Source: Bacteroidales bacterium (GTDB lineage Bacteria > Bacteroidota > Bacteroidia > Bacteroidales > F082). From it: a DNA stretch of 64,000 nucleotides. The DNA lies in assembly GCA_024400295.1 (NCBI GenBank), contig JAKSNA010000004.1, positions 62,001-126,000 on the forward strand, in the 5' to 3' direction. The notes below the pieces were generated by a model. It ran no database searches. It was not told the DNA's origin and saw only the letters and a program-made list of their open reading frames with translations. Of this stretch, positions 28,555 to 64,000 are shown piece after piece. Position numbers and translations under genes: made by a program. Each line of letters begins with the position of its first letter. Position 1 is the first letter of the stretch.

Positions 28555-28995
28555 TTATAGTCCTAATATAGCATTAAACCAGCTTTTTTCTGTGAGTGTC
28601 ACCGATGCTTGAAGTCCCGATTTTAATGTTATTTCCTCGTTTTCTCTTAAAAAAATATCGACTGTGTTTAACCCGTTGATGCGTTTTTCTGATATAGATA
28701 TGACGTTGCCTTCAATCGTTAAACCGTTAACATCAATGGAAACAGTCATTCCTTGTTGTAATTGCTTGGCTTTTTGTGGTTCTATGTAAGCAACGCACGA
28801 TGACGGAGCTAATGGATTGGCTGTAACAGTGAAATATATTTCCTCCTGGTAGGGAATAAGCATTGAAACAGCGACCATAATTGCAATAACTAAACCTATA
28901 ATTGTGATGCCATAACGGTCTATGGCAGGTGGAATTTTGCCAACGATGTTTCTGACTTTTTCGCTACGCAACTCTATGTCTTTTGTCTCTGGCAT
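28555..28995 (-). CDS. Minimal HlyD-like membrane protein of the peptide exporter
   Basis: A 146-residue protein with one N-terminal membrane helix (about residues 28-47), then the entry and exit beta strands of an HlyD/MFP adaptor (PYQEEIYFTVTANPLAPS; QGMTVSIDVNGLTIEGNVIS). The long alpha-hairpin and lipoyl domains of a normal ~400-residue adaptor are absent, without an obvious frameshift. It follows the C39 ABC transporter by 10 bases. The ATG at 28995 is preferred to a TTG at 29016 that overlaps the transporter. It may be a naturally short adaptor or a deleted one. Confidence 0.65.
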   Translation of the reverse strand: MPETKDIELRSEKVRNIVGKIPPAIDRYGITIIGLVIAIMVAVSMLIPYQEEIYFTVTANPLAPSSCVAYIEPQKAKQLQQGMTVSIDVNGLTIEGNVISISEKRINGLNTVDIFLRENEEITLKSGLQASVTLTEKSWFNAILGL

Positions 28996-29005
28996 GTCAA
29001 TAATT

Positions 29006-31189: not shown

Positions 31190-31194
31190 AACTT

Positions 31195-33507: not shown

Positions 33508-33568
33508 GGTGACGGAATTTTAATATGAGTGCAAAAATAATATTTTTTTATATGATTATTTTGATTCA

Positions 33569-35890: not shown

Positions 35891-35915
35891 GTTTTATGAA
35901 AACATTGTTTACTTG

Positions 35916-35923
35916 CAAAAGTA
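35916..35923 (-). promoter_or_regulatory. -7 box TACTTTTG for the barrel 2 gene
   Basis: The complement of caaaagta at 35916-35923, 25 bases before the ATG at 35890; fits TAnnTTTG. Confidence 0.55.
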
Positions 35924-35958
35924 ATGTTTTTAATTAAATGAACATAAGGTTTTAGAAA

Positions 35959-36747
35959 TTATTTTCTTTTGATTAACTTCGCACAATATGAAATGTGTGA
36001 ATAAAAATCCTGTCCATCATATACGGGTTTTAATCTGCAGTTTTTCATATTACATATCGCGTTATTTTTACAATTAGCACATCCTTTAACGTTTTCTAAC
36101 ACTGTTTGTCCTCTAAAGATCCCCCATTTATCTGATTGCCAAATATCAAGCAAAGATTGCAATTTTAAATTACCCATTTTGAATTGTTCGAAGTCATTGC
36201 CATAAACACAAGGGTATACATCTAATTTTTCATCTATTGATAATGATGTATTTCCTGCGGCACAATAAAGAGGGGTTTGTGGACCGATTGAATGCATTGT
36301 GTGTTTGCCATTATAATCATCAGCTAATGCATCATCAGATAGTTGTATAATACTACCATATTGTTTTTCCAATTTATTTACCAATTCAATGACATTCAAA
36401 TATTGAGATTCAGATAGAAAAATATCATTGTTTATTCTGGCTCTCCCCAATGGTTTCAGTTGATTGATATATAAATTACGCACCCCCAATGATTCAATTG
36501 CATAACGAGCAATATCCTCTAATTCAAGAAAATTTTTTGTGTTGACAGAAACGGTTATTCCCATTGAAACACCGGCTCTCCTCAATAAAGACAACTTGTT
36601 TTGAAGTATAGCAAAAGAACCTTTCCCCCTAATGTAATCATGACTTTCTGGAGTTATTCCATCCAATGAAATACCAAGTGTTATGTTGCTGCTTTTAATT
36701 GAATCAATTAGTTTTTCAGTCAATAACATCCCGTTTGATCGAAACAT
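35959..36747 (-). pseudogene. Radical SAM/SPASM protein lacking the N-terminal [4Fe-4S] motif
   Basis: 262 codons correspond to the middle and SPASM end of a peptide-maturing radical SAM enzyme: LGISLDGITPESHDYIRGKG, ITVSVNTKNFLELEDIARY, and the Cys-rich C-terminus with CAAGNTSLSIDEKLDVYPC and GCANCKNNAICNMKNC. The first ~90 residues, with CxxxCxxC, are missing. The frame is closed by a stop about 11 codons upstream of the ATG, and 36748-36840 encodes nothing similar. It therefore cannot bind the SAM-cleaving cluster and is best called a 5'-truncated remnant, although a deliberate pseudo-rSAM partner is an alternative. It sits beside the exporter locus, consistent with a decayed RiPP cluster. 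Confidence 0.75.
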
Positions 36748-49988: not shown

Positions 49989-50018
49989 TTTTTCGTAAAT
50001 AATTGAAAATCATGATTT

Positions 50019-50477
50019 ATAGAAAAGGAAATTGTTTTTTACCAGCCGAATGACCAGATTAAATTGGAGGTCTTTTTTGAAGACGGGAACGTCTGGCTCA
50101 CGCAGGCACAGATGGCAGAGCTGTTCAACAAGGATGTCAGCGGAATAGGCCGGCACATAAAAAATGTTTTGGAAAAAGATGAACTTGAAAAGGAGTCAGT
50201 ATGTGCAAATTTTGCATATACTGCCGCCGACGGGAAGACTTATCTGACGAAATTTTACAATCTCGAAATGATAGTTTCTGTCGGAAACCGAGTGAAATAT
50301 TCAAACATCAATCAGTTCAAAATTTGGGCCGAAGACGATGGCATCATCTACATCGACCTGTTTTCGCTCTTCGCCGACGAGGAAGGCAAGATGGACATCA
50401 AATATTCAAACGACGGCCTGCACCTCATCAGAGAAAGCTATCTGATCTGACACGATGCCGTGAAACGTTATCTGTGA
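50019..50477 (+). pseudogene. Broken RhuM N-terminus fused to an SGNH/GDSL-hydrolase tail
   Basis: Aligned to 7056, the start codon is ATA (50019-50021) in place of ATG. The frame then reads KEIVFYQPNDQIKLEVFFED and IWLTQAQ-type RhuM sequence to NQFKIWAED. It switches without a stop to the end of an SGNH hydrolase: IIYIDLFSLFADEEGKMDI, then SNDGLHLIRESYLI, including the catalytic D-x-x-H. A TGA at 50448-50450 replaces what is normally Trp, after which HDAVKRYL continues to the expected end at 50477. A lost start, a chimeric junction and a nonsense codon mark it as a pseudogene. Confidence 0.8.
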
Positions 50478-50604
50478 CTATTGATGTCCGATGATTTTTT
50501 GATGGCAAAAAACTATGTATCTTCCATGTTCTTGTAATTCGCTCTCGAATTTGCTGAATTACAGGTCTTTGCATAGAAAAATAATTTTATTAGGTATACC
50601 TATA

Positions 50605-51984
50605 TTAGTTGTTTTTACAGTTATCAATAATCTTCTCTAACATGCCAATAGAATAAAAAGGAACATTCACAAGGCGATAGAGCTTATGCCCAATGGGTGT
50701 TGTTAGGTCATTGATAGAGAATGGTTCATTCCAGAAACGAATAGCAGTTACTGGTAAATCCGTATTATCTACAAATACTTGTAAGGATTGTAATTTGGAG
50801 TTATGACCACTTTTTACTTCTATTGGATAAATGCGACCGTCTTTTTGCCAAATGAAATCGATTTCTGCATTTGCTCCCTTTTTGTCTCTTACCCAAAAGC
50901 AAAGTTCGTCTTCTATATGTTTGTCTAATAAAATTTGTAACTCTTGTGCTACGATATGTTCTGCAGCACGCCCTCTCCAAGTGTCTAATAGGTTCTTATT
51001 TTGTAAATACTCTTGTGCAAGTCCAACCTTGTGATTTACTAATCCATTATCCATCCAAATCAGTTTAGGTGACCGCCGACGGATAGGAATTGCAGGTACT
51101 TGAGAAGATGTAATTGGATAAGCCAATTGCATAATAAATGCCTTAGACAACACATCCATGGCTTCATGAATTTGCGTAGAAGTATAGGTGCTATTACCAA
51201 AATTAGCAAACTTTATCGTACTTCCTCCTTCGTGCCAACCAGTATTCAATATATGGCGAATTACACGTGTTTGAGCTTCATTTGTTGCATAATTTTCCAC
51301 ATCCTCTATGTATCCTGTAATCAGTGATTTATAGATAGGAGCTAATGTTACAAGGTCATGGTATGTTAAGTAATGACTTACCACTTCCGGCATTCCACCG
51401 ATCAATGCAAACGTATTAAATTCTCTCTGTAAATCAACATGTAGTAACTCACTTACGGTGAGATTTTCTATTTGTTCACGCCAAGTTTGTTTACCTGCGG
51501 CAGATAGATATTCAAGGAACGAGAATGGTCTCAAATTAAGGTACTCCACGCGCCCCACCGGAAAACTACGTTTTGCTAATTGTTGGTCATTTTGTCTATG
51601 TTTCAAGAGTTTTTGCAAACGAGAACCGGCGGCAATCACATACAAATCAGGTGCTTCTTCGTAGAAATAGCGTAATAAAGAAACAGCAGAATACGACTCT
51701 TGAATTTCATCAATAAACAGCAGTACCGCCTGTGTTTCATGGAGTGCGATATTTTCTCGCACATAAAGATATTGGATAATCTCCTTTACATTGTCTGTTC
51801 GCTCAAAAATATCTCTATCAGACTTTTTTTCTAAGTTTAACTTGATATAGCAATCGAATTCGTGGCTAAATTCATCCACCAAAGTGGTTTTGCCAACTTG
51901 TCGAGCACCACGTAAAACAAGCGGTTTTCGTGATGTCTTGCGTTTCCAATCTCGTAAATCAGATAGTAAATCTCTATTGTACAT
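50605..51984 (-). CDS. AAA+ ATPase with DUF4143 (ATP-binding/nuclease-fold) domain
   Basis: A 459-residue protein of the widespread AAA_14-DUF4143 family. Walker A GARQVGKTT, Walker B LLFIDEIQES, sensor motif VIAAGSRL, then GGMPEVVSHYL and a C-terminal restriction-endonuclease-like segment (NAEIDFIWQKDGRIYPIEVK). Function is uncertain. The start at 51984 follows TACCTTTG (52010-52017, minus strand); the longer frame runs through a tandem repeat and is rejected. A related gene flanks the other side of the island at 63244. Confidence 0.88.
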   Translation of the reverse strand: MYNRDLLSDLRDWKRKTSRKPLVLRGARQVGKTTLVDEFSHEFDCYIKLNLEKKSDRDIFERTDNVKEIIQYLYVRENIALHETQAVLLFIDEIQESYSAVSLLRYFYEEAPDLYVIAAGSRLQKLLKHRQNDQQLAKRSFPVGRVEYLNLRPFSFLEYLSAAGKQTWREQIENLTVSELLHVDLQREFNTFALIGGMPEVVSHYLTYHDLVTLAPIYKSLITGYIEDVENYATNEAQTRVIRHILNTGWHEGGSTIKFANFGNSTYTSTQIHEAMDVLSKAFIMQLAYPITSSQVPAIPIRRRSPKLIWMDNGLVNHKVGLAQEYLQNKNLLDTWRGRAAEHIVAQELQILLDKHIEDELCFWVRDKKGANAEIDFIWQKDGRIYPIEVKSGHNSKLQSLQVFVDNTDLPVTAIRFWNEPFSINDLTTPIGHKLYRLVNVPFYSIGMLEKIIDNCKNN

Positions 51985-52009
51985 GGGTACTTTATTTTGA
52001 AATCGGTTG

Positions 52010-52017
52010 CAAAGGTA
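52010..52017 (-). promoter_or_regulatory. -7 box TACCTTTG of the DUF4143 ATPase
   Basis: Complement of caaaggta, 25 bases before the ATG at 51984. Confidence 0.6.
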
Positions 52018-52054
52018 CTGTTTTTTTGAATTAAGCAAATATTTTTCTACCATT

Positions 52055-52142
52055 TTTTCTTCTAAAACATACCCGTAAAATGTATATTTTTCTTCTAAAA
52101 CATACCCATAAAGTGTGCAATTTTCTTCCAAAACATACCCAT
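52055..52142. repeat. 33-bp tandem repeat, 2.7 copies
   Basis: Units start at 52055, 52088 and 52121, each containing tcttctaaaacataccc. It lies just upstream of the ATPase promoter. No spacers, so not a CRISPR array. Confidence 0.8.
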
Positions 52143-52233
52143 TTTTTCCTCGTTTTGGCGTGTTACAATATTAAAAAGCTGAATTCAAGTAATAAATGCA
52201 ACTTTTTTGTTAATATTTTTAGTTAACGATCTG

Positions 52234-52273
52234 AAGTTACGAAAAAAATATTCAATTGGCGTTAAAATATTTA
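52234..52273. repeat. 40-bp direct repeat, left copy (island boundary)
   Basis: Begins aagttacgaaaaaaatattc and ends attggcgttaaaatattta; identical over 40 bp to 63106-63145. The two copies bracket 10.8 kb of accessory genes and may be attachment sites, target duplications or copies of an element end. Confidence 0.85.
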
Positions 52274-52460
52274 GAAGCTGTTTTGATTTCTTACAATGAT
52301 AATTATACTGTATGTCATTTCGATGCGATTTGCATATCTTTCCGGCATCTTTTCCCCGTTTCACTCCTCGAATAGTCCACTATTCTTCGTCGCAAAACAA
52401 GAAAAATCTGCTCGAAAATATAATGCAAATCCCTATCGAACAAATCAAAACAGCTTCTAA
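52271..52460. mobile_element. 190-bp MITE-like element with 20-bp terminal inverted repeats
   Basis: The left end ttagaagctgttttgatttc and the right end caaatcaaaacagcttctaa are complementary at 19 of 20 positions. The interior has no convincing gene. The left end overlaps the last 3 bases of the 40-bp direct repeat. Its parent transposon is not identified. Confidence 0.65.
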
Positions 52461-52768
52461 GATGTTTTGCCATAAAAGTTTCTCCTTTTGGGTGTATTTG
52501 GACAAAGGCTGGGGCTACTTTTATGAGAGCAACAACTATTTCAAACTTTTCTCCTTTAAACGAACATACTTGTACCGTACCGATAGGATAAGAAAGATAA
52601 TGCCCACAAGTTGCCCTGTCTGCCTATACGCATAAAGAAAGCAACCGCATTCAATTGAACACGATTGCTTGCTCCATCAGCCCCAAAGGGAATTAACCCA
52701 AGAGCATTTGCAACAATCACTCAGATAGGTAAACTATTCAGAGAACCTATGCGCAGCAGAGTGAGCCA
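52461..52768. other. Non-coding or decayed stretch inside the island
   Basis: Several short open frames exist. On the minus strand one reads LGLIPFGADGASNRVQLNAV and continues to a stop near 52560, and another ends LVGIIFLILSVRYKYVRLKE. They overlap in different frames and have no start codon or promoter. I treat the region as decayed or repeat-derived DNA. Confidence 0.35.
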
Positions 52769-53156
52769 CTACAACCCTTCGATAACATCCCAAAAGCATT
52801 TTGGAAGATACACATTAGGCACATCAACTGCTTCTTGGAACATCGGAGCGACCTCTCTTGGCGAATACCCTGCAATGCAGTGCCTCTCGATACTTATGCA
52901 CCGGCATACACAGAACGATATAATCGGCTGATGGGATACAGGATTGCGGATTGTTAGTGATCGTTTCTGTCTTTCCTTTGAAAACCTGCAGCACCTCTCC
53001 ATCGGTGTTTTGGTATTCCAATGCTACCGTATGGCTCCAGTCATCAGGACTCGAAGTTAAGACGGAAATATCAAAATCCGTTTTCGATAATAAAGGTATC
53101 AGCACATGTGCGCTATTTCCACCTCCTACTATTACGATATTTTTATTCATTAGCAC
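52769..53156 (-). pseudogene. Opine-dehydrogenase-like N-terminal fragment, frameshifted
   Basis: The frame from 53156 begins MNKNIVIVGGGNSAHVLIPL, a Rossmann nucleotide-binding start like that of NAD/NADP octopine/nopaline dehydrogenases, and continues to ADYIVLCMPVHKYREALH before leaving frame and stopping at 52824. A second frame stays open to 52769. Intact enzymes are about 350-400 residues. Only the cofactor-binding part survives. Confidence 0.6.
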
Positions 53157-53274
53157 ATTTTGTTAAATCACGGTGCAAAGGTAGGGCTTTTTATTGAGAC
53201 AGCCAAATATTTCAAGGTTGCAGGAGACTGGTAAAATGATGTATATCCCATAATACAATACCTAATGTAATTAG

Positions 53275-54378
53275 TTAGTGTGTTATCAAATTTTCAATAA
53301 TTTCCCTATAGCATGAGTCAATATGATAAATATTATTCCATATATTTTTCCCGCATGCATCCTCTATGTACGATGCGAATTCATCATAAGGGAAGTCCGG
53401 AGTCATATAATTGAAATATGAACATAAATTGTCGTTAGCATAAAGAAAGAAGGGCCCCCTATGCCGCTGATTGATGCAGATGCTTAGATGGCAATCAATG
53501 TATACGACATCTAAGTGACGTAACTGATTAATTAAAGCTTGATATATATTAACGGTATTAACTTTTCTAAGAATAACTACTTTTGTCCCTTCTCTGCAAA
53601 AGATAAAATTATGAGAAAGGCTACTTTCTTCTGATACGATAGATTCTGCATTTTGGAAAAGAGATATCTGGTCAGGAACAGATAACTTCTCGGGAAAGAT
53701 GAGATGGTATCCTGAATCAATTATTATTTGACTTAAACGACTGCTACAAATCTGACGTAATGAGTTCTCTCTCATCAAAAATATTTTTCTTGGGGAAAAA
53801 ATATTAGAACCTTGGCGACATATATGATCAATAAGAGAAACGTATTCCTTGGTATACCTCAAAGAGATACGATGATTATCAAAACAAGTGTCGGGTATAT
53901 AAACGGAACGGAAAAGAGTAATTTTACTAATACGGTAGAATTGAGTCAAAGGAATGCCTATCAACTTGATAAATTCCAAATAATTACCATCCAAATGCGT
54001 TTCGCTAATATAATATATCGGAAGATGATTATATTTTTTCTTTATTTCAGTTACTATCCACCAAAGTCGACCGATAGAGTCTGTTATAGTGTGCCCCCAG
54101 CAAACACTAGAAATGTGACCAATAAATATAATATCTTGATCAACCTTTTCACCCTCATCGAACTTAAAGTCATAGATAGTTCCAATATTGAGATTATCAG
54201 AAATCTTTAATCCGCCACCGACATAATTTATATCTTCTTTGGCAAGAGCCTTATAAGGCAGACCATAGCAATCTTTATAATGATTAATACACAAAGAACC
54301 CGTCTCAAAATAATTATCTTTATGAGCTTCTATAGTGGGATCTTGTAGTAATGGATATGAGTAATGAATGTCTATCAT
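53275..54378 (-). CDS. GT61-type (DUF563) glycosyltransferase of the RiPP-like cluster
   Basis: A 367-residue cytoplasmic protein resembling family GT61 (DUF563). The hallmark region is CWGHTITDSIGRLWW (GH...RLW), and the C-terminal part has KIFLMRENSLRQI, SLFQNAESIVSEESSLSHN with the Glu and Ser typical of the donor site, and FIFCREGTKVV. Its start overlaps the stop of the upstream radical SAM gene by 4 bases, so it is translationally coupled to peptide-modifying enzymes. It may glycosylate the peptide product; this is inference from context. Confidence 0.72.
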   Translation of the reverse strand: MIDIHYSYPLLQDPTIEAHKDNYFETGSLCINHYKDCYGLPYKALAKEDINYVGGGLKISDNLNIGTIYDFKFDEGEKVDQDIIFIGHISSVCWGHTITDSIGRLWWIVTEIKKKYNHLPIYYISETHLDGNYLEFIKLIGIPLTQFYRISKITLFRSVYIPDTCFDNHRISLRYTKEYVSLIDHICRQGSNIFSPRKIFLMRENSLRQICSSRLSQIIIDSGYHLIFPEKLSVPDQISLFQNAESIVSEESSLSHNFIFCREGTKVVILRKVNTVNIYQALINQLRHLDVVYIDCHLSICINQRHRGPFFLYANDNLCSYFNYMTPDFPYDEFASYIEDACGKNIWNNIYHIDSCYREIIENLITH

Positions 54379-55400
54379 AAAATATTTTCTTGAGTAATAT
54401 AACCATTAGAAGATGCAAACTCATATACTCGGGGACACCGAATGTCACCCATGTTATCTGTGTGGAATACTTTTAATGATAAACCGGGGCATCCTCCATT
54501 ACAAATAGGAAGATATTTGCAATTATTACATATGGAATCAGAGTGAATATGGATCCTTTCTTTTTCCATGAGTCTATTCTTAATGTCAAGTATATCATCT
54601 GCCAATAAATTTCCTATACTTTGGTCAGTGCACGTACAAGGCAGTATATCAAAAGTCGGTGAAACGTAAAAATGTGAAACACCTCTACCACAATTAACTA
54701 TGCCGTGCCATGTTTTGCCACTTTCAAGGAATTTGTCCATTAAATCAAAAGCATATAATTTACTCACATCAACACGATAAAAGCATCTGATGAGAAGTTG
54801 ATCTACAAAATTATTCCACGTTGCTGCTGATATTATTTTTTCGGATAGAGGATTAAGAGGTTGAACATATGATACGGTAAGACGACGGAATCGCAAACCA
54901 TTCAAATATTCCGAAAGTGAAAGAACGTTATCCATATTCGCTGGCGTGACAGTTGATGAAATAGATAAGTGAGAATGATAGTTCTGTAAGTATCCAATAT
55001 TCGCCACAACCTTCTTGAAAGTGCCATTTCCCCTTATCTCGTCATGAATATCTTCCGTCCCATCTATAGAAAATTGTATAAAAACATTCTTGCTTAAATA
55101 CTTGATTAATTTATCTGTAACATCCCTATCAAATGTTCCATTTGTTTGGATTTCGATTTTTTCAAATTTATTAGACACATAGTCTAATATAGGAAAAAAG
55201 TTCTTAGTAATGGTTGGTTCCCCTCCTGAAAGCACTAATTTAGAATGAGGATACGCCTCTGATAAAATATCAAATGCCTTACAACAATCATGATATGTCG
55301 GCTCATGATATAATTTTGATAAATTATTTCTACTACAGAAAAAGCAATTACAATTACACTTTTCTGTAATCATAAATATTATACTAATCCTGTTACTCAT
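54375..55400 (-). CDS. Radical SAM/SPASM peptide maturase 1
   Basis: A 341-residue radical SAM enzyme. [4Fe-4S] motif CNCNCFFC (CxxxCxxC) near residue 15, SGGEPTITK as the SAM-binding GGE motif, IQFSIDGTEDIHDEIRGNG, and a C-terminal SPASM region with CGRGVSHFYVSPTFDILPC, then CNNCKYLPICNGGCPG and a final Cys, able to hold auxiliary clusters. Such enzymes form C-S, C-C or related bonds in ribosomal peptides. It is coupled by 4-bp ATGA overlaps to genes on both sides. Confidence 0.92.
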   Translation of the reverse strand: MSNRISIIFMITEKCNCNCFFCSRNNLSKLYHEPTYHDCCKAFDILSEAYPHSKLVLSGGEPTITKNFFPILDYVSNKFEKIEIQTNGTFDRDVTDKLIKYLSKNVFIQFSIDGTEDIHDEIRGNGTFKKVVANIGYLQNYHSHLSISSTVTPANMDNVLSLSEYLNGLRFRRLTVSYVQPLNPLSEKIISAATWNNFVDQLLIRCFYRVDVSKLYAFDLMDKFLESGKTWHGIVNCGRGVSHFYVSPTFDILPCTCTDQSIGNLLADDILDIKNRLMEKERIHIHSDSICNNCKYLPICNGGCPGLSLKVFHTDNMGDIRCPRVYEFASSNGYITQENIL

Positions 55401-56497
55401 TGGGCAATATAATTCTGTTCTATTAGTTCTAAATCATTTTGTACCTCACTAATTGCTTTCATAATGAGATAATCTGTATTTGAAATGCTTCTAGATGTTA
55501 TTATTCTATGATATTCTAATTTCGCATTTATTAGAAAATCAATTTTCCGATAATCACATATAGACATATCCCTTTCTCCCATATCTCCTCGTTCTATATA
55601 ATTAGCAGCATAGCAGGTGTGACATAGATTTATAAAACGGCATGTTTTACAAGGAGAATGTTCAATCTTAGATCTACTGGAAAAGTCTAATAAATCCATA
55701 TTTTGCGGTCTGTTTTCTCCGCACACAGACGGGAAAAACAAATGACATGGATAATATTTATTAGTATCGATGTCGTAGATAATTTTTTTACCGATATCAC
55801 ACAAGATACAATCACACTTAGTAAGTAATCTATCTAAATGTAGATTTAACGTATGGCAACGATGTACCTGCGGATTTTTAATATAATATTCTGCCAAAAG
55901 TGTTAATTGTTCATAGTAGGTTTGCTGGAGGTTTTTCTCTTTCCAATTAGTAAGAACTGCAAATATGGGAACAATGTTTTTCAATCCACATCCATGAAGA
56001 AAAATTACATTATCAGCATAAAAAGGCAAAGTTTGAGGGGTTATCACCATATTTACAGTACAATTGTCCCATGTTTCTGCAAAAAAAGGTATATCTATAA
56101 GATCGAAAGAATGCGGACGATTGATATCCTGTGAAACTCTATTTCCATCTAAGCTCAACTTACAATCAATATCTTTATTGTGCGATTTTAACCATTCTTG
56201 AATCTCACCATGCACAAGAGTTCCGTTTGTGGTAATTTGAAAATGTACGTTTTCTTCTAAATGCTCATTCCAAATTTGTTCACAAAAAAAGCGAATTTTG
56301 TCAAACACCAAGAATGGCTCTCCACCAATGAGTTTTATCTTAGTCCCATGTGCGGTAGGCTCTTTTAAAATATTTAATACCTTATTTAAAACTTGCTCTA
56401 CTTCGAAAACATTTTGATTCTTGTTTCGTTCATAGCAATATACACAATTTAAGTTGCATGATTGGTTTGTTTTTATGAATAAATGACGGCTGTACAT
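55397..56497 (-). CDS. Radical SAM/SPASM peptide maturase 2
   Basis: A 366-residue radical SAM enzyme. CNLNCVYCYERN holds the CxxxCxxC cluster; IGGEPFLVF is the SAM motif; FQITTNGTLVHGEIQEWL and CKLSLDGNRVSQDINRPHSF are typical. The C-terminal SPASM-like region contains CDCILCDIGKKIIYDIDTNK, KTCRFINLCHTCYAANYIER and further Cys. It differs strongly from its neighbour, so the two probably act on different residues or in sequence. First enzyme gene after the small peptides, separated from them by a strong hairpin. Confidence 0.92.
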   Translation of the reverse strand: MYSRHLFIKTNQSCNLNCVYCYERNKNQNVFEVEQVLNKVLNILKEPTAHGTKIKLIGGEPFLVFDKIRFFCEQIWNEHLEENVHFQITTNGTLVHGEIQEWLKSHNKDIDCKLSLDGNRVSQDINRPHSFDLIDIPFFAETWDNCTVNMVITPQTLPFYADNVIFLHGCGLKNIVPIFAVLTNWKEKNLQQTYYEQLTLLAEYYIKNPQVHRCHTLNLHLDRLLTKCDCILCDIGKKIIYDIDTNKYYPCHLFFPSVCGENRPQNMDLLDFSSRSKIEHSPCKTCRFINLCHTCYAANYIERGDMGERDMSICDYRKIDFLINAKLEYHRIITSRSISNTDYLIMKAISEVQNDLELIEQNYIAQ

Positions 56498-56521
56498 AAG
56501 TCTACATATTAAAATAAATAA

Positions 56522-56556
56522 CGTTAGCAGAACTCATTGATCGGGTTCTGCTAACG
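56522..56556 (-). terminator. Perfect hairpin between peptide 3 and the radical SAM genes
   Basis: A 12-bp perfect stem (cgttagcagaac / gttctgctaacg) with an 11-nt loop, followed on the minus strand by a T-rich ttatttatttt. It fits a leaky terminator that lets the peptide genes be expressed above the enzymes. Confidence 0.8.
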
Positions 56557-56568
56557 CGCGATGATTAG

Positions 56569-56706
56569 TTATGCGGAACACGTACCATCAGTTCCATCAT
56601 ACCAACATGCAGGTGCATTAACTGTGGATGCTTCCATATGCTCGTAATTCATTGCAAGCCACGCATTCACATTAGCTCCCATCTGAGACATTCCTTGATT
56701 TAGCAT
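56569..56706 (-). CDS. Candidate RiPP precursor peptide 3 (45 aa)
   Basis: A 45-residue peptide: leader-like helix NQGMSQMGANVNAWLAMNYE, then HMEASTVNAPA and a core-like end CWYDGTDGTCSA with two Cys. An unusually perfect Shine-Dalgarno (aggaggtg, complement of 56713-56720) lies 6 bases before the ATG, in a genome that mostly lacks such sites. It is followed by the 12-bp hairpin and two SPASM enzymes. Small size, Cys pair, strong translation signal and position support a modified-peptide precursor. It is not obviously related to peptides 1 and 2. Confidence 0.65.
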   Translation of the reverse strand: MLNQGMSQMGANVNAWLAMNYEHMEASTVNAPACWYDGTDGTCSA

Positions 56707-56738
56707 TTTACACACCTCCTTTCATCAATTTGTTTCGG

Positions 56739-56895
56739 TTATTGGTCTTCACAATCACAATCATCCGCTCCCGTACCCGGGATCGGGACAATCACACATA
56801 GATACATCGTAAAGTGATGCATTCAAAAATACGATTTCGCTGCAAGTATTATTTTTTGGCATAGCGACATTGCCAGTTATACCCCATCGGCACGT
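56739..56895 (-). pseudogene. Candidate precursor peptide 2, altered start and frameshift
   Basis: Aligns codon by codon with peptide 1: CRWGITGNVAMPKNNTCSEI, then VFLNASLYDVSMCDCPDPG. At the position of the peptide 1 start it has ACG (56893-56895) where peptide 1 has ATG; the internal ATG at 56862 is shared. After CPDPG the frame meets a TGA at 56761-56763, whereas a +1 frame continues TGADDCDCEDQ to a stop at 56739, which resembles the acidic Cys-rich end of peptide 1. Either a real frameshift or a base-calling error. Confidence 0.6.
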
Positions 56896-56924
56896 CGATT
56901 TTAAAGACAAGACACTATTGCTGA

Positions 56925-57086
56925 TTATTCGTCATCGCATGAGCAATGTGGAATATCATCACAATTACAATCATAATTTGGTTCGCACATAGACGACTCA
57001 TATTCGTATGCGCCCAAAAAAATTATTTCGCTACAATTATCATTTTTTTGCATAGTAACATTACCTCTTATATCCCATCGGCTCAT
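56925..57086 (-). CDS. Candidate precursor peptide 1, acidic Cys-rich (53 aa)
   Basis: 53 residues from the ATG at 57086: SRWDIRGNVTMQKNDNCSEI, IFLGAYEYESSMCEPNYD, then a C-terminus CNCDDIPHCSCDDE. Six Cys, mostly in the acidic tail, suggest bonds or metal binding after modification. A -7 box TACTTTTG lies at 57124-57131, so the longer frame to 57152 starts upstream of transcription and is rejected. Translation might also begin at an internal ATG (57053), which is preceded by agagg. Homologous to peptide 2. Confidence 0.65.
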   Translation of the reverse strand: MSRWDIRGNVTMQKNDNCSEIIFLGAYEYESSMCEPNYDCNCDDIPHCSCDDE

Positions 57087-57123
57087 CGGCTTATAAGTTA
57101 ATATACTGGTTATAACTACGCTA

Positions 57124-57131
57124 CAAAAGTA
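57124..57131 (-). promoter_or_regulatory. -7 box TACTTTTG of the peptide/radical-SAM unit
   Basis: Complement of caaaagta; start site expected about 30 bases before the peptide 1 ATG. It separates the peptide unit from the upstream FtsZ-like operon. Confidence 0.6.
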
Positions 57132-57194
57132 CAATATATTTTTGACATACACAAATTTTTAACGTAAAAAACCTATTTTTTTACAGTTTTTCAG

Positions 57195-58337
57195 TTAATC
57201 TCGTCTTTTATATGGTCTTAATGGCAAATCAAGGGAAGCTTTCAGTTCGTCCATTAATTTATTATATCGACGCGTCCACATTTCTTTATCATCATACCAA
57301 GGACGACCTCTAAGTTTTCTAAATTCTTTCTGCTGCTGAATATATTCCTCAAGTGTAATTTCCAGTATACGTTCACAAGCATCTCGATTACCAAGCAAAC
57401 GATTTAATTCAAATTCTGTAGATGATAAACGTAGAGGCGAACATGATTGATAGAAATCAAGTAGCCATTGCATATTGCTCCGATTAAATTCTTGCTCTTC
57501 TTCAGGAATTTCATCAGTATCTTTGTAAAAAGCATTGAATGCGTTCCAAAATTCCGAACTTGCCCACTGTTCAGAGTAAGGTACTCCTCTCAATTCTTTA
57601 ACGGCAGCTTTTAATTGCGGATAAGATAAAATTGCTTTCTCTGCACAAGGTTTGTTTACAATAGTTAATCTACCTTGCGGCTTACGTGTGAAAAACTTCC
57701 CACATTTTGGACATTGTTGTGTAAACGTTGGTTCGAACCAATCATTCGCTTCCATATGGTCATCAGACCAAAAGGTAAGCCCCTCCTTCGACCAAAAGTC
57801 TTTGAAAAAGAGGACTCTTCTTTTATGACCACAATGTGGGCATTTTATAATACGCGTTTCAGTTCCCTCAGGCGAACCATAATATGTTAAAATAAATTGT
57901 ATATTGTTTATTACCTCTTCGTCAGATTTGTTGAAGGCATTGAGAAGGTTGAAATCTGTATACTTTGTTTTCAAAATATCATTATCGCAGATATGGAGCT
58001 CATCAACCAATTTTCGTAGTTCGGAACACGCTTGTGTTGCCTTATCCATTCGTATTTGCCCCTCAAAAGCAAAAGGAGTAGTAACTACGGCGACGGTTCT
58101 AATCCTTTTCTTCGACGCTTTTTTAACAACATCAATAATCATGGTGGAGCCGGTATGACCGCCTAATCCTGCCACTAAGATTAACACGTTACCATTTTCG
58201 AGAGCCTTGTTAATGTTTTCCTCCGAATCTTCTTTGGCAAAATAGAAACAATTGATTTCCGGTCTTTGTCTAGAAAATTGCTTTATGACATTGCAACCTG
58301 CGTTTCCAATGCCTAGAATAGAAATTTTTGTTTTCAT
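57195..58337 (-). CDS. FtsZ/tubulin-like GTPase-fold protein with zinc ribbon
   Basis: A 380-residue protein. Residues 1-~150 follow the FtsZ nucleotide-binding half: ILGIGNAGCNVIKQF, the tubulin signature LVAGLGGHTGSTMI (GGGTGTG variant, residues ~57-64), RTVAVVTTPFAFEGQIRMDK, DELHICDNDIL and LLNAFNKSDEEVINNI. The second half of FtsZ, including the NxDxxD T7 catalytic loop, is absent. A zinc ribbon (CPHC at ~166-169, CPKC at ~209-212) and a helical C-terminus follow. It may bind GTP without classical assembly-driven hydrolysis. Last gene of a tight four-gene operon with a phosphatase and an AAA+ ATPase. The architecture is not one I know by name. Confidence 0.7.
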   Translation of the reverse strand: MKTKISILGIGNAGCNVIKQFSRQRPEINCFYFAKEDSEENINKALENGNVLILVAGLGGHTGSTMIIDVVKKASKKRIRTVAVVTTPFAFEGQIRMDKATQACSELRKLVDELHICDNDILKTKYTDFNLLNAFNKSDEEVINNIQFILTYYGSPEGTETRIIKCPHCGHKRRVLFFKDFWSKEGLTFWSDDHMEANDWFEPTFTQQCPKCGKFFTRKPQGRLTIVNKPCAEKAILSYPQLKAAVKELRGVPYSEQWASSEFWNAFNAFYKDTDEIPEEEQEFNRSNMQWLLDFYQSCSPLRLSSTEFELNRLLGNRDACERILEITLEEYIQQQKEFRKLRGRPWYDDKEMWTRRYNKLMDELKASLDLPLRPYKRRD

Positions 58338-58342
58338 AACAT

Positions 58343-59104
58343 TTAATTTTTATTGAATTTAATGATTTGATAACTTTGTATAGGCTTGCCTAACGCTTTG
58401 TTTCCTAGGCAATCCACATTAGTAAATCCTTTTTGAGAATTTACTACGTAGGGCACTTGCGTATGACCAAATACTTGCCAATAATTTGTGCCTTCAAACA
58501 GATTAACTCCTGCTTTTTCGAAGATATATGAACGCAGCCAAATGGGGCTTTGTGATGGACCTTCAAAATTCCCACAATCAAAGGTAGCATTAGGACGAAC
58601 CATAAATGCTTTTTTGTTTATTTCCCACAAATTATTGATTTGATTGGCTATCTCGTTTGGTGCTTCATCTCTATATGGTCCCAAATACCTTCCCCACCAT
58701 TGTCGGCTAACCCCGGCATGGGTAATTAAATGGTTTCCTACCGCATAAGCAACTCCATTAAAAAAATCCTCATTTTCATAAAGAAGATCCTGTATCTCTG
58801 TTGCATGCACGGAATCAAATCGGCTGTAGATTTCTCTTCCCTTATCATAAAGGAGGTAGTGTAGCTCATGGTCTGCATATAACAAGACAGTTTCCGGATG
58901 TTGCTTCTTGTAATCAATAATCTCAAGAAAATTCCTCTTACAATCCTCAAAAGATATGTTTTGATAAGGATCGAGATAATCGCCGACAAACACGTTCCGG
59001 ATGCCATCAATAATGACATCTCTCCATGCATCACGACCATGCACATCGCCTATGACATTAGCGGCGATTGCATTGGGGTCAAAATGTAAACATTCGGTTT
59101 CCAT
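58343..59104 (-). CDS. Calcineurin-like metallophosphatase
   Basis: A 253-residue cytoplasmic phosphoesterase. Metal-binding motifs in order: IGDVHGRDAW, FVGDYLDPYQN, LLYADHELHYLL (GNHE replaced by ADHE), LITHAGVSRQWWG and QVFGHTQVPYV. The Asn to Asp change in the third motif is unusual but could still bind metal. The gene is 5 bases before the FtsZ-like gene and 3 bases after the helical gene. A role reversing phosphorylation within this operon is an inference. Confidence 0.85.
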   Translation of the reverse strand: METECLHFDPNAIAANVIGDVHGRDAWRDVIIDGIRNVFVGDYLDPYQNISFEDCKRNFLEIIDYKKQHPETVLLYADHELHYLLYDKGREIYSRFDSVHATEIQDLLYENEDFFNGVAYAVGNHLITHAGVSRQWWGRYLGPYRDEAPNEIANQINNLWEINKKAFMVRPNATFDCGNFEGPSQSPIWLRSYIFEKAGVNLFEGTNYWQVFGHTQVPYVVNSQKGFTNVDCLGNKALGKPIQSYQIIKFNKN

Positions 59105-59107
59105 CTT

Positions 59108-60034
59108 CTAATCAAAATATTTCGACAATTCTTTTAACACCTTGATTCTTTGTTTGGCATGCTTCACATCTAATTTTTCATGCGGAATCTCAACTAAATA
59201 ACCTGCAATATGTTCTTTCGTATAGGTACGAATAATTTCATCTTTTTTACATATCCGCCATAATTCGTATAAGTACGAAACACGCGGATTATGTAACTCA
59301 GCCCACTGGGCAAGACCTTCAAGTATCCATAAGATTTCCACTTCAATCCAACTACATGATTTTTCGTTACTTTCCTTTCGTATTTTCCTTAATAAAGACC
59401 TATGAACAGACAGTATTTGCTCAGTCCTTTCAATATGACGGAGACACGTTTTCTTGGTCGCAAAGACATCTTTGCGGGCATGTACCCAGTAATATTGTTC
59501 CAACATTGCAATCTCTACCCACCGGCGGTTATTATCGTCATTCCCATACGGACCATATTTCGAAATACACTCGTAATATTTAGCCGATTCTTCATCTTCT
59601 TCCATTTTGTCTAACTCACGGCTTAAAAGTAGGCTAAGATTGATAAAACAATCCCACAAAATATTCTTTTTACTTCTAATATTAGGGATATAACCGATCA
59701 TCTCTTTATGTAGAGCCTTAGCCCGCAAGAAGAATGGCTCACGGAAGTCTATGTCTTCGTCTTGCTGCAAGTAGTAATTGCAAAGCGCTTCGCCTACCAA
59801 TGAAACACGTAAATATAAATCTTGTTCGTACCATGCTTTAAGTTTTGGGAAGTATGCTCTGAATTTATTTGCCTTATGACTTAGTTTGTCAAAGGCATTG
59901 ATTCGCTCATCGTATGTTGGAGAATAGTTGCTTTTTTTATTATCCAATTCTTTAAGAATACAAAACATATCATCAGCAGCCTTCATATAGGATGCATAAA
60001 TATCTTTTATTTTTTTATTATCAATTTTTCCCAT
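59108..60034 (-). CDS. Helical protein of unknown function
   Basis: A 308-residue, almost entirely alpha-helical, charged protein with no signal peptide or membrane segment. Trp/Tyr-rich helices such as FPKLKAWYEQDLYLRVSLVG and WIEVEILWILEGLAQWAELH suggest a TPR/HEAT-like solenoid. I recognise no family. It is placed between the AAA+ ATPase (68-base gap) and the phosphatase (3-base gap), so it is a structural or adaptor candidate. Confidence 0.6.
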   Translation of the reverse strand: MGKIDNKKIKDIYASYMKAADDMFCILKELDNKKSNYSPTYDERINAFDKLSHKANKFRAYFPKLKAWYEQDLYLRVSLVGEALCNYYLQQDEDIDFREPFFLRAKALHKEMIGYIPNIRSKKNILWDCFINLSLLLSRELDKMEEDEESAKYYECISKYGPYGNDDNNRRWVEIAMLEQYYWVHARKDVFATKKTCLRHIERTEQILSVHRSLLRKIRKESNEKSCSWIEVEILWILEGLAQWAELHNPRVSYLYELWRICKKDEIIRTYTKEHIAGYLVEIPHEKLDVKHAKQRIKVLKELSKYFD

Positions 60035-60102
60035 AAGGCGTTATTTTTGTTATAAAAAATATGTTTTTTTAGCAGCTGGTAGAAGCAACAAAAAGTGTCA
60101 TT

Positions 60103-61758
60103 TTAATAGAAACCAATGCGATTGTGTTTATGCGAGTTGCGAGTTTCCATTTTATTATGTAAGAGTTCATACTCATGTCTGATTTCTTCAGACAGCGAAG
60201 GTGAAGTGTTTGCGATATGGCGGAGCAATACTGCTTGACTAATAAGTTCCTCTTTGCGAGCAGCTTCCATTGCAGCATAATTAACCACGGCACTTATGTC
60301 GCTGGCAGTAAAATTTTCCGCTTTTTGACCTAATTCTTGACAATTTACATCTGAGGTCAACGGACGGTCACGCAATTCAATATCAAAAATGGCTTCGCGA
60401 GCCTTTGCATCAGGAGCTGGTACATATACTTTTTTATCAAAACGTCCGGTGCGTAGCACGGCAGAATCTATTATGTCTGGCCGGTTAGTTGTTCCTATAA
60501 CAAAAATTCCGCTATCAGCTAAGTTGTTGAGTTCAGATAAGAATGTGTTCGTTTCCGCTGCAACTTTTATATCATAATCTCTACGTGTGGGACACATCGC
60601 ATCAATTTCGTCAAAACATAGAACACACGGAGAGTTGCGCTTAGCCTGGTCAAACAGTTGTTGAATTAACATCTGCGTACCGTGTATATATGAACTACTG
60701 ATTTCAGAAGCTTTAATCAAACAATAGGACATGGCTCCTTCATTGGCAAAATGTTCAGCGAAAAAAGTTTTACCACAGCCAGGAGGACCATAGAGTAACA
60801 TACCATTGGTCATATGAAGTTTGTATTTATGAGAGAGTTCAGGATGCAATAATGGAAAAAGAACTTCGTTACGCATGCTCTCTTTTAGGTACTCCATTCC
60901 TGCTACTTTATTCAGTCCATTCGTGCCGTCTCCATGTTTAAATTGGAATGTCTCCAACACGCCACAACGAGAGTATAATGACTTTTGTTCTTCAAACGAA
61001 AAATTCGTATTAGTATTAACTTGATTTTCGTTCGTATTAAATTGATTTGAAGAGATGTTCATAGCAGGATTCCCGTTGTTATAAGTTTGCCTGTTACCTG
61101 AATTTTGATTTTTATTATCCTCTTCATCTTGACAACAATCAGTCAGGGACTCTAATATCGTTTTGCAGACATCATCTAATTTAAATCTATCATCCAATTC
61201 TGGCATCCACTCAGCCATGCCAGAGCTCCGAATTTCATCCTGCAAATAGCTACAATATAGAATCAACAAATCATTTAACTTTGTTTTGGAGTGTAGATTC
61301 GTTATTCCACATTCTATTACCGGTTGGATAAAAGAGGGAAGTTGATTTGTATAATTAAGTTTCTCGTTTTGGCGGGCATTGAAAACAGCATGCCTTTGTT
61401 TTGCCCTAGACTCGTTTTTGATATTGTCGTCAATATGCCACGGCAAATGTCCGGCAAAAAGATAATACAAAATAGTAGTCACGGTAAATACCGTATCTTG
61501 CTCTTCAGACCATCTACCTGTTTTTATATAGTGATCAGAATAATAGCGATAATCCAATTTCTGTGTTTTGTCAATTTTTATCTCATCAACGACAAATGGG
61601 GCATCCTCCATAATAAAACTCTGCGGACTTAGGTTCTTGCAACTTTTATTGAATGAGCTGTAAAGATATGTGTTATTTAAGATACTCATTCCCAATATTA
61701 GATTATTGGCGCATTTTTGTCCCGCTACTTGAGGTAAAATATCATCTAATGTTTTCAT
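60103..61758 (-). CDS. Cdc48/SpoVK-type AAA+ ATPase with possible kinase-C-lobe-like N-terminus
   Basis: A 551-residue protein. Residues ~30-130 resemble the C-lobe of a protein kinase without catalytic residues: KNLSPQSFIMEDAPFVVDEI where HRDLxPxN would be, then TVFTVTTILYYLFAGHLPWH like SDVYSLGxxLYYLLTGxLPW. An Asn-rich linker (~220-250) follows, then one AAA+ module: GMLLYGPPGCGKTFFAEHFA (Walker A), CVLCFDEIDAM (Walker B), sensor-1 GTTNRPD and arginine-finger region RTGRFDKKVY. First gene of the operon that ends with the FtsZ-like protein. It may remodel or disassemble a partner. Confidence 0.8.
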   Translation of the reverse strand: MKTLDDILPQVAGQKCANNLILGMSILNNTYLYSSFNKSCKNLSPQSFIMEDAPFVVDEIKIDKTQKLDYRYYSDHYIKTGRWSEEQDTVFTVTTILYYLFAGHLPWHIDDNIKNESRAKQRHAVFNARQNEKLNYTNQLPSFIQPVIECGITNLHSKTKLNDLLILYCSYLQDEIRSSGMAEWMPELDDRFKLDDVCKTILESLTDCCQDEEDNKNQNSGNRQTYNNGNPAMNISSNQFNTNENQVNTNTNFSFEEQKSLYSRCGVLETFQFKHGDGTNGLNKVAGMEYLKESMRNEVLFPLLHPELSHKYKLHMTNGMLLYGPPGCGKTFFAEHFANEGAMSYCLIKASEISSSYIHGTQMLIQQLFDQAKRNSPCVLCFDEIDAMCPTRRDYDIKVAAETNTFLSELNNLADSGIFVIGTTNRPDIIDSAVLRTGRFDKKVYVPAPDAKAREAIFDIELRDRPLTSDVNCQELGQKAENFTASDISAVVNYAAMEAARKEELISQAVLLRHIANTSPSLSEEIRHEYELLHNKMETRNSHKHNRIGFY

Positions 61759-61871
61759 AATGCTTCATTTTTAATAGTTGTTAATTTTTAAATTGATGGC
61801 TTGACGTATAAAACCGTTATTCACCTGATTTCAAACATCTGATTTTTTCATCTTTGGGAGCAACGTTCATT

Positions 61872-61967
61872 CTATTTTCCCACATATTTTTCACAGATTC
61901 CTTTTTGTGTTTCTGCAAATTCTAATTGCATGTGTACTTGCTGTTTTTTTCGTTTTTCTGTCACCAT
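61872..61967 (-). CDS. Mini-ORF, 31 aa, basic
   Basis: ATG at 61967 to TAG at 61872: VTEKRKKQQVHMQLEFAETQ and KGICEKYVGK. It shares a K-R-K...MQLxFA pattern with the mini-ORF at 62341, so the two may be related. No family recognised. Could be a genuine small protein or chance. Confidence 0.3.
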   Translation of the reverse strand: MVTEKRKKQQVHMQLEFAETQKGICEKYVGK

Positions 61968-62009
61968 AATACCTGAATTTTAAATGTTTGTATTTTTATC
62001 GCATAAAAA

Positions 62010-62040
62010 AAGGCTTGAACATACGTAGTGTCCAAGCCTT
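62010..62040 (-). terminator. Terminator hairpin 2 of the mini-ORF array
   Basis: Stem aaggcttg / caagcctt followed on the minus strand by ttttttatgc. Confidence 0.75.
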
Positions 62041-62050
62041 CATTTCTGAG

Positions 62051-62152
62051 TTATTCGAGCATGGGGCGTTCCACCTTTAGCCCGTACTTGGATTTACTAT
62101 CGAATAATGCTTCGACTGCTGCTGTATCGCGTTTTTTTGACGTGTTACACAA
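62051..62152 (-). CDS. Mini-ORF, 33 aa, TTG start
   Basis: From a TTG at 62152: TSKKRDTAAVEALFDSKSKY then GLKVERPMLE. The composition looks protein-like, and it ends 11 bases before a terminator hairpin. No ATG; it could equally be the tail of a lost gene. Confidence 0.3.
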   Translation of the reverse strand: MCNTSKKRDTAAVEALFDSKSKYGLKVERPMLE

Positions 62153-62234
62153 TATTTACTTTTTAACTGAATCAATTTTGATTATAAAATTTACAGGGTT
62201 ATTTACTCGTTTTTCTTAGGCTGTTGCATAAAAA

Positions 62235-62266
62235 AAGACTTGGGACGTGCTTCCGCTCCAAGTCTT
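62235..62266 (-). terminator. Terminator hairpin 1 of the mini-ORF array
   Basis: Stem aagacttgg / ccaagtctt followed on the minus strand by tttttttatgc. Confidence 0.8.
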
Positions 62267-62340
62267 GTATCTTCTTTTCTTATCCACACGCACTCACAAC
62301 AGACAACGGAGCGATCGAATTGCTCGACCACGATCGCTGC

Positions 62341-62418
62341 TCAATCATTTGCAAGTGCATTATGTGCGAATAGTAATTGCATTCTTAATTTTCTTTTCCG
62401 ATTTTTTATATTATTCAT
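62341..62418 (-). CDS. Mini-ORF, 25 aa, with promoter
   Basis: ATG at 62418 to TGA at 62341: NNIKNRKRKLRMQLLFAHNA, LAND. A -7 box TAACTTTG (complement of 62423-62430) lies 4 bases upstream, which would make a nearly leaderless small transcript ended by the hairpin at 62235. A structured small RNA is an alternative reading. Confidence 0.35.
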   Translation of the reverse strand: MNNIKNRKRKLRMQLLFAHNALAND

Positions 62419-62724
62419 TTTGCAAAGTTATAGTTTTTTTTGATATGTCCATAGTTTTTTTTTGTTGAACATAAAAAAAAATAACTTGATAAAGTTTTGA
62501 GTCAACCGAAGATGATTTGTAACGATACAAAACACCATCATCGAACACCTTAATCAGAGGCTCGAAACGGCACCAAAATTTATAGTTAAATATTTGATTA
62601 TTAATTAGATATATTTGCAAAACTGGAGAAATTTTCGTAACTTTAAATACTATTCGACGGTATTTTAAATGATTACGAAAGCTCCTCCAGCGGTACTCAC
62701 AACTCTTTTGGACAGTCATCCCGA

Positions 62725-63066
62725 ATGGTTCGAGACTTTCAACCTCGTCATCGGGCCGAGAACTGCCGGATTGCCTCAGGACGAGAGTGTCATCCGGGTA
62801 TCGGTCATTCCAAGTCCCTTGAGCACAGGCTCTTCTCGCAGATAACCCGCAGCTGGAGCGGAACTCAGCTTCTTTCCATTGAAGATGCTACAAGACGGGC
62901 CGCTGAAACAACCACATCGAAAGGACTGACCGTATATGTTGACATCAATACCAAAACTTATGACATACAAAGACCGATTGACGAATCTTACGAAAGAGAA
63001 CGCAGGAGACGAATCATCCCGATGGACGCTCTACCCAAGTGGAATTATCTCGTCAAAAGGTCGTGA
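62725..63066 (+). pseudogene. ISAzo13-like transposase C-terminal remnant
   Basis: The frame ends with sequence like the DDE transposases of the ISAzo13/Rhodopirellula type: SLEHRLFSQITRSWSGTQLL, then ATRRAAETTTSKGLTVYVDI and KWNYLVKRS. Only about 110 of the ~400 expected residues remain; the start and the first catalytic Asp residues are missing. It lies 40 bases before the right 40-bp repeat, so it may mark how the island was acquired. Confidence 0.65.
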
Positions 63067-63105
63067 ATTTTACCAAGTTATTTTTTTACCGTTACTAACT
63101 GTTCA

Positions 63106-63145
63106 AAGTTACGAAAAAAATATTCAATTGGCGTTAAAATATTTA
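63106..63145. repeat. 40-bp direct repeat, right copy (island boundary)
   Basis: Identical to 52234-52273. Flanked here by the transposase remnant on one side and by a DUF4143 ATPase gene on the other. Confidence 0.85.
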
Positions 63146-63243
63146 ATTTTTGTTCTTCTGTCTTTCCGTCAATCTTTCAGTTAATTCCGTCATCAACCGC
63201 AAAATAAATCGGTTACTGATTCCCATTGACCATACGAACGAAA

Positions 63244-64000
63244 TTAGAAGATAGAATAGAAAGCATATAAAGGTATATCCGTAATCTGCTCACTTAGATG
63301 GTATGGAGATAAAGATGTTCGAATGACGTTTTTAGGGTGATTTTGTTGTATATATATGGCTATGGATTTGGCTTTTAGATGCCGTTCCGCTTTTACTTCA
63401 ATAGGAATGATTTGTTCCTCTTTTTGAATGACAAAATCCATTTCCGCAATACTCTCATCAGGTGTCCAATAGTGAATCTCCAGCGAATTCAGTGTCTGCA
63501 TTTCTTGCAAAACAAATTGTTCGGTTAAAGCACCTTTATACTGGAGAAATAAATCATTTCCTTGAGTTATGGTAGTAGCACTTAGTCCTGACATTGCTCC
63601 CATCAATCCAATATCTAATAGATATAATTTGAAGGAATTTATATCTTCAAAACCTTTTAGAGGAAGTTGCCCACATCGCACACGTGAGATTTTATAGGTT
63701 AGTCCGGCATCACACAGCCATTGAATAGCTGTTTCAAAATCGCGAGCTCGTGCTCCTTGTTTGACAGCATTATAAACAAACTTTTTATTTTCTTTGGCTA
63801 ACTGGGCGGGAACAGAATCCCATAACAATGCCATGCGCTTAACAATTTCTTTAGGCGGATGTTTAGAAAAATCGTTTCGATAAGACTTTAAAATTTCTTG
63901 CTGCACAGCGCGTACTTTTTCGTAATTCTGTTGTTCAGCAAAGGTTTTAACTACTTCCGGCATACCTCCGACAAAGTAATATTGCCGTAATAAATCCGTT
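63244..64000 (-). CDS. AAA+ ATPase with DUF4143 domain, C-terminal part (truncated by window edge)
   Basis: The minus-strand frame is open to the window end (reading LLRQYYFVGGMPEVVKTFAE at the edge), so the ATPase core lies outside. The visible part has the GGMPEVV linker, a helical DUF4143 region and the nuclease-like segment IAEMDFVIQKEEQIIPIEVK. Same superfamily as 50605-51984 but a different subgroup. Function uncertain. Confidence 0.85.
   Translation of the reverse strand, partial: TDLLRQYYFVGGMPEVVKTFAEQQNYEKVRAVQQEILKSYRNDFSKHPPKEIVKRMALLWDSVPAQLAKENKKFVYNAVKQGARARDFETAIQWLCDAGLTYKISRVRCGQLPLKGFEDINSFKLYLLDIGLMGAMSGLSATTITQGNDLFLQYKGALTEQFVLQEMQTLNSLEIHYWTPDESIAEMDFVIQKEEQIIPIEVKAERHLKAKSIAIYIQQNHPKNVIRTSLSPYHLSEQITDIPLYAFYSIF

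Follow-up and report, generated by a model that had tools for sequence, protein, structure and literature searches.

The operon described here lies on the minus strand of a 64,000-nt stretch of DNA from a Bacteroidales bacterium of the F082 lineage (GenBank assembly GCA_024400295.1, contig JAKSNA010000004.1, positions 62,001 to 126,000), called the window below, which is part of G000:C34 in our genome set and belongs to a gut-type genome that is 98.4% complete. Downstream of a gene for an FtsZ-like protein it contains three small peptide genes (pep1, pep2, and pep3), two distinct SPASM radical-SAM enzymes (rSAM B and rSAM A), and a glycosyltransferase of family 61 (GT61; Table 1). All of these, together with the 4-bp overlaps (ATGA) at both the rSAM B/rSAM A and the rSAM A/GT61 junctions, had been proposed in an earlier, sequence-only reading of this DNA and were found as described. 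The GC content of the operon stretch is 33.8% compared with 44.2% in positions 1–50000 of the window, which suggests that the stretch may be acquired DNA.

Table 1. Features of the operon, with positions in the window.
Feature	Position	Strand	Basis
Bacteroidetes-type promoter TTTG-N20-TACTTTTG, 5' of pep1	57124..57155	-	motif match
Genus-wide 5' leader element, precedes pep1	57063..57089	-	pattern search and alignment
pep1, SEI-type precursor, 42 aa, MQKNDNCSEIIFL..., Cys/Asp-rich core	56925..57053	-	
Genus-wide 5' leader element, precedes pep2	56872..56898	-	pattern search and alignment
pep2, SEI-type precursor, 33 aa, shortened core	56761..56862	-	
Cys/Asp tail ADDCDCEDQ behind pep2, out of frame	56739..56768	-	
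pep3, CW-type precursor, 45 aa, probable rSAM B substrate	56569..56706	-	homology
Hairpin terminator/attenuator between precursors and enzymes	56521..56557	-	z -4.7
rSAM B, SPASM radical-SAM maturase, 366 aa	55397..56497	-	profile and homology
rSAM A, SPASM radical-SAM enzyme, 341 aa, ortholog not found (scope in text)	54375..55400	-	profile and homology
GT61 glycosyltransferase, 367 aa	53275..54378	-	profile and homology

Both radical-SAM proteins possess a CX3CX2C and a SPASM-type Cys motif (at residues 14 and 283 in rSAM B, 15 and 291 in rSAM A) and score above the PF04055 cut-off of 29.5 bits (rSAM A 57.9, rSAM B 40.3), which identifies them as SPASM radical-SAM enzymes. A search of genome contigs with rSAM B yielded 80 loci, the first 42 of which (L028–L069) contain relatives of 27–46% identity. 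In the two closest of these, L028 and L029 (46%), and in the viral contig L108 (45%), the enzyme is accompanied by one small adjacent peptide, without a second SPASM enzyme or a GT61. The open reading frame (ORF) of pep3, which starts at 56706, 8 nt after an AGGAGG sequence, encodes a peptide resembling that of L028 (score 49, attained by 0 of 1000 shuffles) in an alignment that spans VxxWLAxNxxHMxxS...CW. The L028 peptide in turn resembles the one in L029 (score 46, 0 of 1000), which is nearly the same as that of the phage-like contig L108, and Cys-repeat peptides occur near many (uncounted) of the more distant rSAM B relatives. A pep3-like peptide is thus conserved beside rSAM B in an independent genome, which lends support to the RiPP (ribosomally synthesized and post-translationally modified peptide) assignment made earlier. 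As judged from these data the region very probably is a RiPP locus, and pep3 is quite likely the substrate of rSAM B.

The precursors pep1 and pep2 form a family distinct from that of pep3. With their starts corrected to 57053 (MQKND...) and 56862 (MPKNN...), respectively, they are paralogues (local score 78, reached by 0 of 1000 shuffles), and the ATG of each lies 29 nt from the initial base of a leader element (see below). Given this paralogy, the shared spacing, and the likeness of pep3 to the L028 peptide, the small ORFs go beyond what chance would produce. The pep1/pep2 family, here named SEI, combines a short leader, [SC]E[IL][IV][FE][LVM], with a variable Cys/Asp-rich core; among the first 22 aa of background small ORFs the loose motif was found in 6 of 7966 and the strict motif in 0 of 7966 cases. 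SEI peptides are present at four other loci, always adjoining rSAM423, a PapB-like enzyme of 421–426 aa (244 aa only in L133): L008/L032 (one locus, in the congeneric genome G091), L043 (five peptides, in a metagenome-assembled genome from reindeer), L130 (G354; four intact peptides, one of them with SNL for SEL, plus a fifth interrupted by an in-frame stop), and L133 (G188; motif variant TDLIV). Among the ORFs read, L130 and L133 lack an rSAM B relative, whereas L008 and L043 hold, besides the SEI peptides and rSAM423, an additional Cys peptide along with rSAM B; since these two loci join both precursor/maturase sets, the composite layout recurs. The SEI array of L130 (4543–5313), with its in-frame stop and out-of-frame Cys/Asp tails, suggests fast turnover of cores. 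A programmed frameshift in pep2 was considered and set aside, as the out-of-frame tails in L008 and L130 differ in direction and site.

Within the genomes of the order, a profile of rSAM423 matched 5 of 384 at E ≤ 1e-45, of which G354 and G188 carry SEI peptides. No such peptides were found in the stretches read of G199, G472, and G371, nor in those of G673, G685, and G578, and because of these six genomes the wider rSAM423 group cannot be regarded as always SEI-paired. An SEI profile search of 369 genomes of the order detected no new locus (G000, G188, and G354 are in the profile by construction; a match in G308 at E = 0.009 has no motif ORF), and a viral scan with rSAM423 gave no relatives.

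No ortholog of rSAM423, the enzyme that adjoins the SEI peptides at the other loci, is encoded in the operon unit or elsewhere in its own genome (E ≤ 1e-45). The operon is best read as one in which rSAM A stands in for rSAM423, and we regard it as an even proposition that pep1 and pep2 are substrates of rSAM A. The nearest relative of rSAM A with a solved structure is SkfB (6efn, 1.4e-15), and a distant relative (28%) in L024 adjoins a PqqD-like protein and a Cys-rich small ORF. At E ≤ 1e-20, 393 genomes of the order contain three rSAM A hits, its own included; no ortholog was found in plasmids at 1e-5 and no relatives in a viral scan. The test named in the sequence-only reading, conservation of the peptides beside homologous enzymes, came out in favor of the pep3/rSAM B pair; the pep1/pep2 family does have a SPASM maturase as a conserved neighbor, but this enzyme is not orthologous to rSAM A.

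The GT61 protein belongs to its family according to PF04577 (46.3 bits, gathering score 27). Of 173 genomes of the bacterial family, 5, its own included, were matched at E ≤ 1e-10. No radical-SAM neighbor was seen at the five loci of its relatives that were read (L165–L169), of which L167 contains no nameable glycan gene, and no GT61 relative occurs in the 80 rSAM B loci at E ≤ 1e-5. A literature search for family 61 glycosyltransferases paired with RiPPs found no related paper. The enzyme probably was recruited from surface-polysaccharide synthesis; that it acts on a peptide here is a tentative proposal, for which we see somewhat less than an even chance.

Upstream of pep1, a site at 57155 matches TTTG-N20-TACTTTTG, which we take to be the Bacteroidetes promoter consensus; it is one of seven such sites on both strands of the window. 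For the promoter claimed earlier, sigma-70-like sites were not in excess in a scan (26 found vs. 28.0 ± 4.6 in shuffles), which leaves the Bacteroidetes-type site. The "leaky terminator" of the same reading corresponds to the hairpin at 56557–56521 (-19.8 kcal/mol, z -4.7), which is followed by a weak T-run but was not listed by a terminator scan; L008 and L029 also have a hairpin between precursor and maturase genes, with z of -6.3 and -3.3, respectively.

The leader element contains a 20-nt sequence that is exact before pep2 and has three mismatches before pep1. At ≤1 mismatch it matches 41 times in 34 of the 173 family genomes, as opposed to 0 matches of a reversed control in the same set. 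Alignment of 29 leaders (28 unique ones from L137–L163 and that of pep1; duplicates and edge cases were dropped, and L134–L136 were excluded as not of the same kind) gave the consensus AAAACCGAYGnGCCGATGGGATATAACYGGC, with an ATG at +28 to +33 in all 29. A longer pattern has three copies in the operon's own genome, two of them at pep1 and pep2, and an Rfam scan of positions 50000–64000, the element included, returned no match at E ≤ 1. In L137–L163 the element was found mostly ahead of genes with signal-peptide-like starts. Its use as a mark of RiPP genes was rejected, since many genes for secreted proteins in this genus have it upstream.

Taken together, we see about an even chance that the unit is a composite RiPP operon for two different peptides, each precursor line having its own radical-SAM enzyme. 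In such an operon, rSAM B would modify pep3 (core ...ACWYDGTDGTCSA), probably introducing a Cys-centered thioether or another cross-link beside the CW motif. In the place of rSAM423, rSAM A would modify pep1 and pep2, most likely by PapB-type Cys-to-Asp/Glu thioethers, and GT61, translationally coupled to rSAM A, might glycosylate one of the products. The hairpin before rSAM B could keep the precursors in excess of the enzymes, and leader trimming and export of the products would be left to proteins encoded elsewhere. A bolder version, with two chemically distinct peptides from unrelated precursor families, one of them glycosylated by GT61, and rSAM A as a new SEI maturase that lacks the rSAM423 N-terminal domain, appears rather doubtful to us.

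Several results weigh against the composite operon. rSAM A and rSAM423 are not orthologous: at about 22–23% identity, rSAM A is no closer to rSAM423 than to other SPASM enzymes, and because its radical-SAM core begins at residue 15, the protein lacks the N-terminal part of about 80 residues found in rSAM423. Searches of genomes of the order, plasmids, and viral sequences turned up no second genome in which SEI peptides adjoin an rSAM A ortholog. The core of pep2 is truncated: it retains two Cys and stops early, with the tail ADDCDCEDQ following in another frame. Direct similarity of pep3 to the L029 peptide is absent (score 20, reached by 536 of 1000 shuffles), and its resemblance to the L030 peptide falls short of significance. 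When pep1 and pep2 were compared with whole loci, SEI peptides usually ranked first, yet shuffled queries often scored as high (2, 5, 1, and 15 of 300 for pep1; 3, 67, 75, and 20 of 300 for pep2), because shuffling keeps the composition. Glycan or polysaccharide-export genes (named by eye from translations) lie near the GT61 relatives in L165, L166, L168, and L169. Finally, the unit encodes no exporter or protease, as had correctly been noted before, and no RiPP recognition element (RRE) protein.

Two alternatives are each unlikely in our view. According to the sequence-only reading, one precursor (pep3, or pep1/pep2) would pass through both SPASM enzymes in turn and receive a sugar from GT61, so that the product would be a doubly modified glycopeptide. 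The three enzymes do form one overlapping unit, and Thr and Ser stand beside Cys in the pep3 core, but elsewhere rSAM B has a pep3-like or another Cys peptide at its side and no second SPASM enzyme (L028, L029, L108), and SEI peptides elsewhere lack rSAM B (L130, L133). This proposal is therefore not favored; since rSAM B and the SEI peptides each occur apart, two parallel precursor–enzyme lines fit better. Alternatively, the RiPP part might consist of pep3 and rSAM B, perhaps with pep1 and pep2, with rSAM A and GT61 acting on a surface glycan and joined to it by chance. Such an arrangement would agree with the position of the GT61 relatives L165 and L166 (36–37%, same genus) among glycan genes and with the lack of a precursor-linked rSAM A ortholog. 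However, the 4-bp overlaps tie both genes to rSAM B, the best model for rSAM A is the peptide maturase PapB (89 bits), and its relative in L024 has a PqqD-like protein and a Cys peptide next to it. Very unlikely, lastly, are pep1 and pep2 as relics left after loss of rSAM423, with a broken pep2 core and only the pep3/rSAM B line working: rSAM423 is indeed missing from the genome at E ≤ 1e-45, pep2 is truncated with an out-of-frame tail, and broken SEI copies occur in L130 too, but pep1 is intact, with a promoter-like site, a leader element, and a Cys/Asp core like those of its relatives.

Some observations concern the related loci and the remainder of the window. The pair of a pep3-like peptide and an rSAM B relative in L108 (an IMG/VR contig) lies near SSB and YqaJ recombinase genes and is possibly phage cargo; L109, likewise an IMG/VR contig, has an rSAM B relative resembling those of L009 and L010, near an integrase-like ORF identified by eye. 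L009, L010, and L054 represent another cluster type, in which a Cys peptide, a radical-SAM protein of the B12-binding type, and an M42 peptidase accompany the rSAM B relative. M42 or M18 aminopeptidases are found in some rSAM B-related loci, and an M42 enzyme also in L008 and L130; one of the L008 type was not found in the operon's own genome, in a search that lacked a positive control and so shows nothing. Only 3 of the 42 rSAM B relatives have an ABC-transporter motif nearby. Within the window, positions 28555–36747 contain a C39 peptide exporter (29006–31189) and a SPASM radical-SAM ORF without its N-terminal part (35959–36747), perhaps a decayed second peptide cluster. The FtsZ-like protein (with zinc-ribbon matches), a phosphoesterase-like protein, a 308-aa protein, and an AAA ATPase are encoded in a row at 57195–61758; PADLOC assigned the ATPase to IetA and ORFs at 50605 and 63244 to PDC-S01, with no match for the other three proteins of the row. 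Downstream of GT61, a short ORF (52824–53156) with an NADP oxidoreductase N-terminal domain (PF03807) has its own promoter-like site at 53207.

The two precursor families defined here (SEI-type and CW-type) are each linked to a maturase lineage, so that specific pairs can be named for co-expression. The three loci of composite layout, which differ in their second maturase, would be an example of maturases being exchanged while the precursor family is retained, and, if GT61 truly acts on a peptide, RiPP pathways would draw on a wider range of sugar-transferring enzymes.

Among known systems, the nearest solved structure for both rSAM B (1e-34) and rSAM423 is 5wgg, which we take to be the CteB thioether enzyme. 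In contrast to CteB/SCIFF-type maturases, however, rSAM B aligns only from 5wgg residue 98, so that the N-terminal part, presumably the RRE, is missing, and a six-Cys precursor is absent. Maturases of CXXX-repeat peptides (TIGR04115) are the second-best model of rSAM B and share with it the Cys-repeat peptides beside many relatives, but rSAM B scores 79.3 bits against a cut-off of 350 and pep3 has no CXXX repeat. No paper was found on CXXX repeats or on M42 peptidases with radical SAM, and NCBIfam at E ≤ 0.1 gave no match for any of the 13 SEI members or for pep3 and its CW-type relatives in L028 and L029. BGC3 and BGC9 (PMC10352776) likewise combine radical-SAM enzymes and glycosyltransferases in Bacteroidales. 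The precursors of that report mostly have GG-type leader residues and most clusters a peptidase-containing ABC transporter (PCAT), whereas pep1–pep3 have no GG, the unit has no PCAT, and the nearest C39 transporter is about 22 kb away. The PapA/PapB ranthipeptides (NF047865) provide the best NCBIfam model for both enzymes, but with 100.8 (rSAM B) and 89.2 bits (rSAM A) these remain so far below the cut-off of 340 that the PapB class was not assigned. PapA/PapB precursors have similarly Cys/Asp-rich cores, and PapB joins Cys-Xn-Asp with n = 0–6 (PMC9413430). The SEI cores fit such links: 79 of the 80 core Cys of 13 SEI peptides have an Asp or Glu within this range, a spacing expected largely from their acidic composition alone.

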